Assembly: GCA_029964075.1 (NCBI GenBank)
Contig: CM057144.1
Location: forward strand, 5,293,281-5,357,280
DNA length: 64,000 bases
Reading direction: 5' to 3'
Origin: Patiria pectinifera
Taxonomy: Eukaryota; Echinodermata; Asteroidea; Valvatida; Asterinidae
The notes under the pieces were generated by a model. The model saw only the letters and a list, made by a program, of their open reading frames with translations, ran no database searches and was not told the origin of the DNA. The translations under genes were made by a program, and so were the position numbers. Positions 61,506-62,640 of this stretch are shown one piece after another (position 1 is the first letter of the stretch; each line of letters starts with the position of its first letter).

Positions 61506-62400
61506 CTATATAACCACATTGCACTACTACCGAACTCGGTAGTATTGGGAATTTTGGTTAATTTTAATTGAATCTCGGTAAATTTTAATTGAATTTGCAA
61601 TCGATGAGGGGTGTTCAAATTACTCATTGGTAATATTCCTACATTGGGGAATGATGCTTTTGTTACTTTGTAGCTTTCTTGCTGGATCTGATCAAGAGAT
61701 AATATTTATAGTAATACTTTAAACACCCCCGTTAAAAGCTAAAATGTTGGCCCTAAAAATACCGTAAATCATGCAAAGTCCTATTTTTTTTTTCAGGTTT
61801 AATGAGTGCGAAAATGTTGCTATTTAATGTTGGCACCTCGCTGTCCTCTGCTGTAAAGCTATAGACTTGCATTGTTATTCAATGTATATTATTTTGCTTA
61901 CTCTTTCCATTAAATTGTTTGTAGCCTTGTAAATATTGTCAGGCACAGACTGATAATTTGCCCTACTTTGCGCCATGTAGAAATGCAGCTAAGTAGCTAT
62001 GAGTAGTCTATAATTGCCACTTGCCGTGTTAAGAAGAAGCACAGTGTGGGCATATTGACATTCTGATAATATCAACGTCCCTTATCTATAGCCAATTGCA
62101 ATAAAATTGACCTAAATTCCCACTATACCTCAGGCTCAATAGTAGGGCAATGTGGGAATAATACCTATGGGTACTTTGACCTGCCCTTATCTATAGCAAA
62201 TTACAACTGCCAGGGCCTAGAGTAGGAAATTTTGGAAATGTTATCAATGGGTACTTTGAAAAGCCCTTATCTAAAGCAAAACACGTCAAAATGTCTAGTA
62301 TTTCTCACTTCGCTCAGGTTCTGTAGTAGGGCAATGTGGGAATATTACCAATGGGCACTTTAAACAGCCGTCTATACTATAGCAAATTACATTAAAGTTT

Positions 62401-62465
62401 AGAGTATAAGCACTCCCCTGAAGACGGTCAAGGCATACTGACCGGAACGTCGAGTTTATACCTCT
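62401..62465 (+). ncRNA. Hammerhead-ribozyme-like fold
   Basis: CTGAAGA (62418-62424) matches the CUGANGA box. Stem II CGGTCA/TGACCG encloses AGGCATAC. GAAC (consensus GAAA) and GTC follow. Stem I forms between AGAGTATAAGCACTC (62401-62415) and GAGTTTATACCTCT (62452-62465). The order equals a type I hammerhead with almost no stem III, the form known from Penelope-like elements. The A-to-C change in the second box probably weakens it. Confidence 0.5.
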
Positions 62466-62481
62466 GGTTCTTTTCAGAACC
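62466..62481 (+). ncRNA. Histone-mRNA-type 3' stem-loop
   Basis: GGTTCT-TTTC-AGAACC: six base pairs and a four-base pyrimidine-rich loop, fitting the metazoan histone 3' stem-loop consensus (GGYYCU UHUH AGRRCC). It starts one base after stem I of the hammerhead-like fold. No histone gene is nearby. Confidence 0.6.
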
Positions 62482-62640
62482 ATTCTCTTAGTTCAGAAAT
62501 TATTCGCACATGGTGTTTCCGCAAACCTTTCATTATTTAAATTACATTAAAATTGATCGAAATTCTCACGTTGCACTGGTTCGGTTGTAGCACAATGTTA
62601 AAATTTAGGTACATTCAGATTTAGTGCAAGGGGGAATGTT

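Follow-up and report, generated by a model that had tools for sequence, protein, structure and literature searches.

Why should one unit of a tandem array carry a short insert in which a hammerhead-like ribozyme motif is followed by a stem-loop (SL) of the kind that ends histone mRNAs, and what do the two signals say about how the parent element makes its RNA ends? The insert lies in the window, by which we mean the whole 64-kb stretch of DNA analysed here, and a preliminary description had suggested a tiny non-autonomous retroelement whose ends could be set by self-cleavage and by SLBP/U7-type processing. The insert proves to be a truncated piece of a GIY-YIG-type Penelope-like retrotransposon (PLE), and the sequences of its relatives suggest that a PLE lineage uses, or used, histone-type (SLBP/U7) 3′-end formation.

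The insert and its parent element

Occupying positions 62397–62538 on the forward strand, the 142-bp insert is real and sits between two copies of the 13-bp target site duplication AAATTACATTAAA, the left at 62384–62396 (found again by script) and the right at 62539–62551, neither assigned a strand. The uninterrupted site had been reported for the other array units; one neighbouring unit resembles it (62094–62123 against 62540–62569, 83% over 30 nt), and the remaining units have drifted there.

A search of the 614-Mb genome with a 168-bp query for the unit, as proposed with the preliminary description, returned 40 further matches at 93–96% identity among those scored. Longer copies share sequence far upstream and then enter reverse transcriptase (RT) and GIY-YIG frames located upstream of the module, so that the supposed tiny element is instead a fragment of a coding PLE. 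The upstream frames contain a YVDDTFVVW-type motif, which we take to be the RT motif, and a GIY-YIG domain is recognized in locus L031 (PF01541, E 1.2e-5). At locus C87, the one tandem examined, the module is found on both sides of an 853-aa open frame (RVT_1, E 3.1e-9), with the ribozyme cores 2903 bp apart and the SL starting 85 nt upstream of the ATG. The end of this frame matches the L031 endonuclease query at 87% across residues 32–195 (C87:83505–83990), where Pfam reported no GIY-YIG domain. Pfam gave no match on the RT-side fragments of L006 and L034, and a PDB search with the 853-aa frame gave none at E ≤ 0.01.

The ends of the copies are also PLE-like. Of the 37 copies in a census, 13 break off 11 nt ahead of the ATG, as the window insert does at its tail-less 3′ end, and 10 extend 21–25 nt into the open reading frame; these two end points straddle the start codon and differ by about 35 bp. 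The 5′ ends are variable: 17 of the 37 begin 0–5 nt before the ribozyme core, and some extend 704 bp or more upstream, which is as far as the reference goes. In this census duplicated loci (L010, L011 and L013; L003 and L004) are each counted, and the hairpin was not located by script in two copies. Directly upstream of at least 11 of 38 loci read is an inverted second piece (L008, L010–L012, L018, L024, L026, L029, L030, L032 and L036). The sequence across the ATG, corresponding to the tail, occurs at 1359 genomic places with up to three mismatches (reversed control, 0). An optional tail of 30–40 bp and an internal start of reverse transcription are described for PLEs in parts of PMC11167929 and PMC3846280, and inverted second pieces in part of the latter. 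Owing to the coding frames, the optional tail and the inverted upstream pieces, all as in PLEs, we regard the insert as a 5′-truncated PLE copy.

The hammerhead-like motif

Stem I opens with a 5′ strand at 62401–62417 (AGAG-TATAA-…, read by eye) and closes with a 3′ strand, GAGTTTATACCTCT, at 62452–62465; between them, at 62418–62451, is the core CTGAAGA–stem II–GGAACGTC, all on the forward strand, with cleavage predicted after 62451. The core is there, as described, but it is atypical and has no real stem III. On reading the sequences, one unpaired base separates CUGANGA from stem II, the window's family has GGAAC where sister families have GAAAC, and the window copy has C where its family has T in innermost stem I (CTC to CCC). 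Rfam hammerhead models matched neither the window stretch, even at E ≤ 10, nor the 20 PLE relatives introduced below, and at gathering scores no Rfam model of any kind matched the 64-kb window. The core is found at 963 genomic places with up to three mismatches (reversed control, 0).

Twenty relatives were picked by endonuclease similarity alone (53–69% identity), with their flanks unseen beforehand; the flanks were then retrieved for these 20, out of 152 protein matches. They make up about five families and cannot count as 20 separate cases. By their ribozymes, L077 and L088 belong to the window's family and L082–L085 to one other family. Stem II covaries between families, as the covariation check proposed earlier had called for, and pairs in 94% of cells; its covariation score is 0.384 against 0.162 in shuffles, none of 500 reaching it (11 sequences, 9 distinct), a figure that the tool warns is inflated by relatedness of the sequences. 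Alignment A2 sets ten of the relatives beside the window, without L081 and L087 (no motif), L084 and L085 (near-copies of L083), and L086, L088, L089, L090, L092 and L093 (insertions, deletions or decay). Alignment A1 omits eight relatives (L081–L085, L087, L090 and L092) and A3 omits seven (L081, L082, L084, L085, L087, L090 and L092).

In a genome-wide search with the Rfam hammerhead models (73 of 76780 candidates scored), the window's family was absent from the ten loci read, the families listed being other hammerheads. Two such families match Rfam type I (L047, L048 and L051–L055; L049, L050 and L056), with one of the ten loci above the cut-off and no histone SL nearby.

The histone-type signal

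Adjoining stem I is the histone-type hairpin GGTTCTTTTCAGAACC (62466–62481, forward strand), whose start is 14 nt 3′ of the predicted ribozyme cut (62451/62452). Its earlier identification holds: searched on both strands, the 64 kb gives no other strict histone-SL match, and 60 roughly dinucleotide-preserving shuffles of the window averaged 0.08 such matches, with a maximum of two. The Rfam Histone3 model, a further check that had been proposed, scores it at 27.0 bits (E 1.1e-5), below the cut-off of 34. The pseudo-LTR of these elements carries a hammerhead-like ribozyme followed 10–14 nt on by a histone-type SL.

The preliminary reading of a retroelement with the two motifs side by side is supported, and both are conserved in relatives. 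The SL is present with 0–2 mismatches in 17 of the 20 relatives, the best of 50 shuffles per locus having 3–5, and L082 has it with four mismatches, its outer pair being altered; the module is missing from L081 and L087, which counts against the pattern. Following the SL in 12 of the 20 is the histone downstream element (HDE) CACAAAAGAGATTT with 0–3 mismatches, spaced by 9 nt in 11 of these carriers and by 1 nt in L090. The identical 14-nt HDE stands 10 nt after the SL of a host H1-like gene (L043); sister families therefore carry the SL and then the host's HDE at nearly the host spacing. Histone3 scores are above the cut-off in seven of the 20 relatives (34.6–40.5 bits, compared with 39.5 bits for the host tandem histone cluster), with a match below it in five more. 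The conserved SL and the HDE rule out a chance hairpin. The combination of SL and HDE occurs at 864 genomic places with up to three mismatches (reversed control, 0).

Histone3 matches in the genome are both tandem and dispersed, and flanks were fetched for eight of 77. None was found in 20 other GIY-YIG loci (flanks of 20 of 144 GIY-YIG matches) or in ten other hammerhead loci, so these controls yielded no carrier outside this PLE clade.

Pairing is kept in 98% of SL cells, with two-sided changes at three pairs (18 sequences, of which 14 are distinct and three are histone-type signals); taken alone, the window and sister families show almost no change in the SL and lend it no covariation support. 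Between diverged pseudo-LTRs, the peaks of identity include the ribozyme, the SL, the CACATGGTG box and the end of the coding region; L078 and L092 have a further peak at the start-codon region. In the window, the box CACATGGTG.TTCCGCAAAC, kept between PLE families, is at 62507–62526 on the forward strand.

Several features count against histone-type processing. At 62491–62504 (forward strand), the site of the HDE in sister families, the window copy has nothing recognizable: the HDE is lost or decayed in the window's family, which is the most abundant family read. The first loop position is C in 9 of the 37 copies of that family. A third family (L082–L085) lacks the HDE and departs from the histone consensus in its outer pairs, which are A–U or U–A; the 5′ flank of the PLE SL is CCUCC or CCUCU, unlike the A-rich flank of histone SLs. 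With its HDE decayed, the window's family has probably seen the histone-type step weaken, disappear or give way to another mechanism.

A U7 search gave two candidates, both below threshold; the better, L097, scores 27.5 bits (cut-off 34, E 0.17), and control genomes also yield sub-threshold matches. In L097, CUCUUUU faces AAAAGAG of the HDE. In modelled duplexes the HDE of sister families pairs with this candidate, sub-threshold U7: duplex energies for four such HDEs are −7.0 to −7.7 (equalled by 1–8 of 500 shuffles), and the H1 gene HDE reaches −9.5 (equalled by 1 of 500). The window copy gives −3.8 (equalled by 60 of 500), L003 from the same family also −3.8 (129 of 500), and L083 −2.6 (168 of 500).

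Other arrangements of such signals were seen. In L083–L085, two related hairpins (TGTTCTTATCAGAACA and AGTTCTTTTCAGAACT) stand in series after a canonical GAAACGTT ribozyme end, with no HDE. Close series of SL plus HDE, possibly small tandem arrays of the signal, are found on C8 (three at 55-bp spacing, C8:7965025-7965173) and C7 (three within 0.5 kb, C7:38819282-38819753). A dispersed repeat (L039–L042; C1:1007029, C1:5305427, C1:6604896 and C9:11593864) combines a Lys-rich H1-like stretch with a canonical histone SL and HDE, its copies being 92–99% alike in pieces of about 0.8–2 kb; its score is common to 28 Histone3 matches, of which these four were read. Canonical SLs with HDE-like signals also follow stretches that are not obviously histone at L045 (C5:4689522), L046 (C7:11693697) and L044 (C2:7236420), with a DDE-transposase-like frame upstream of L046 (PF07592, E 6.8e-6, just below the cut-off). 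Other transposons, too, may use histone-type 3′ ends.

A proposed histone-type route to PLE RNA ends

The explanation that we favour, and hold to be rather probable on the sequences compared, is a 5′-truncated copy of a PLE whose pseudo-LTR combines ribozyme and SL, followed in sister families by the HDE, and whose transcripts would be processed by SLBP and U7. By analogy with published PLEs, reverse transcription would begin at an internal site near the start codon and halt shortly upstream, yielding the insert, which would integrate with its 13-bp target duplication. Transcripts reaching the downstream pseudo-LTR would bind SLBP and pair with U7 at the HDE; a cut just after the SL would leave an mRNA with a histone-like end and no poly(A), expressed mainly in S phase. 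The proposal that such signals set the ends of the insert does not hold, the predicted ribozyme cut being 55 nt inside it and the SL ending 57 nt short of its 3′ end. The 37 copies include none that stops within 2 nt of where the histone cut is expected, which counts against that proposal and against histone-type processing; a single copy comes to 3 nt, at an inverted junction. Because new copies run straight through the module and none ends at the cut, their templates are likely to be RNAs that escape it, whether by read-through of tandem copies or as ribozyme-made circles. Insertion of an anole PLE in vitro did not need the ribozyme, according to part of PMC11167929. Histone-type 3′-end formation as first suggested is strengthened for the sister families with SL and HDE but weakened for the window's family, with its unrecognizable HDE.

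A tentative extension, which we consider less likely than not, has the pseudo-LTR acting in an LTR-like manner: with a start before the ribozyme, the hammerhead and the histone site, it would give a terminally redundant, non-polyadenylated mRNA tied to S phase through SLBP/U7, the ribozyme and histone cuts competing to make mRNA or read-through and circular templates. A TCAKTC-like motif just before the ribozyme in sister families, seen by eye only, is a candidate mark of the transcription start, as are the 17 of 37 copies that begin 0–5 nt ahead of the core.

The hairpin could alternatively be an RNA element of the PLE itself, a protein-binding site or a fold aiding the ribozyme, independent of SLBP or U7. 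Two points fit this: it is kept in three families, among them one whose outer pair has changed and which lacks the HDE, and it stands next to the ribozyme in a part of the element that the copies examined reproduce. Left unexplained are the HDE resembling the host's, at a similar spacing, in 12 of 20 relatives and the Histone3 scores of 34.6–40.5 bits in seven, and we consider this reading unlikely. Still less probable is a relic, in which an ancestor captured a histone-gene 3′ end in its pseudo-LTR and the signal now hitchhikes or fades. The window's family, abundant at 963 core places, and L082–L085 lack the HDE, as a relic might, but the SL holds to 0–2 mismatches in 17 of 20 relatives where adjoining 20-nt stretches drop to 10–60% identity between families, and it differs from host genes by paired changes.

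That short copies are common, 17 of 37 starting 0–5 nt before the ribozyme core, and that animal retrozymes with type I hammerheads exist (part of PMC7229834) would suit a tiny independent retroelement or an animal retrozyme. We give this very little credence: other copies pass unbroken into the PLE coding frame, for which reason a tiny SINE or retrozyme was rejected as a candidate, and the two 3′ end points fall where PLE tails do, about the start of the open reading frame.

If histone-type processing of these PLEs is real, borrowing histone 3′-end formation couples retrotransposon expression to DNA replication, and such transcripts escape poly(A)-selected RNA sequencing. According to part of PMC7761336, what the hammerhead does in PLEs is unknown; a second RNA-end signal 10–14 nt away gives that question a concrete setting. 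We found no PLE with a histone 3′ signal among titles and abstracts of the literature matches listed, and in one set of 17 listed papers none combined 'penelope' with 'U7 snRNA'; mention in key PLE–hammerhead papers is possible. The parts of PMC11167929 and PMC3846280 considered here, both accounts of PLEs, do not mention a histone-type SL or HDE.

Metazoan retrozymes, as presented in part of PMC7229834, share with the insert short repeats, a type I hammerhead, here a predicted one, and target duplications, but the insert belongs to a protein-coding element, and the copies read continue into its coding frame with no small tandem or non-coding unit of their own. With the 3′ ends of replication-dependent histone mRNAs (Rfam RF00032) the PLE signal shares a 6-bp stem and a 4-nt loop and, in sister families, an HDE at 9 nt and scores of up to 40.5 bits; it differs in lying in a retrotransposon pseudo-LTR after a ribozyme, in its A-poor 5′ flank, in the below-cut-off score of the window copy, and in a third pair that is U–A rather than the C–G of the five host-type signals read. 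Closest to home are Penelope/Poseidon-type PLEs, which in the portions of PMC11167929 and PMC3846280 consulted have RT and GIY-YIG endonuclease, tandem pseudo-LTRs, 5′ truncation, inverted copies, short target duplications, an optional tail of about 30–40 bp and a minimal hammerhead in the pseudo-LTR, the last being predicted here, with no Rfam match. What sets the present elements apart from those accounts is a histone-type SL directly after the hammerhead, accompanied in sister families by the HDE.
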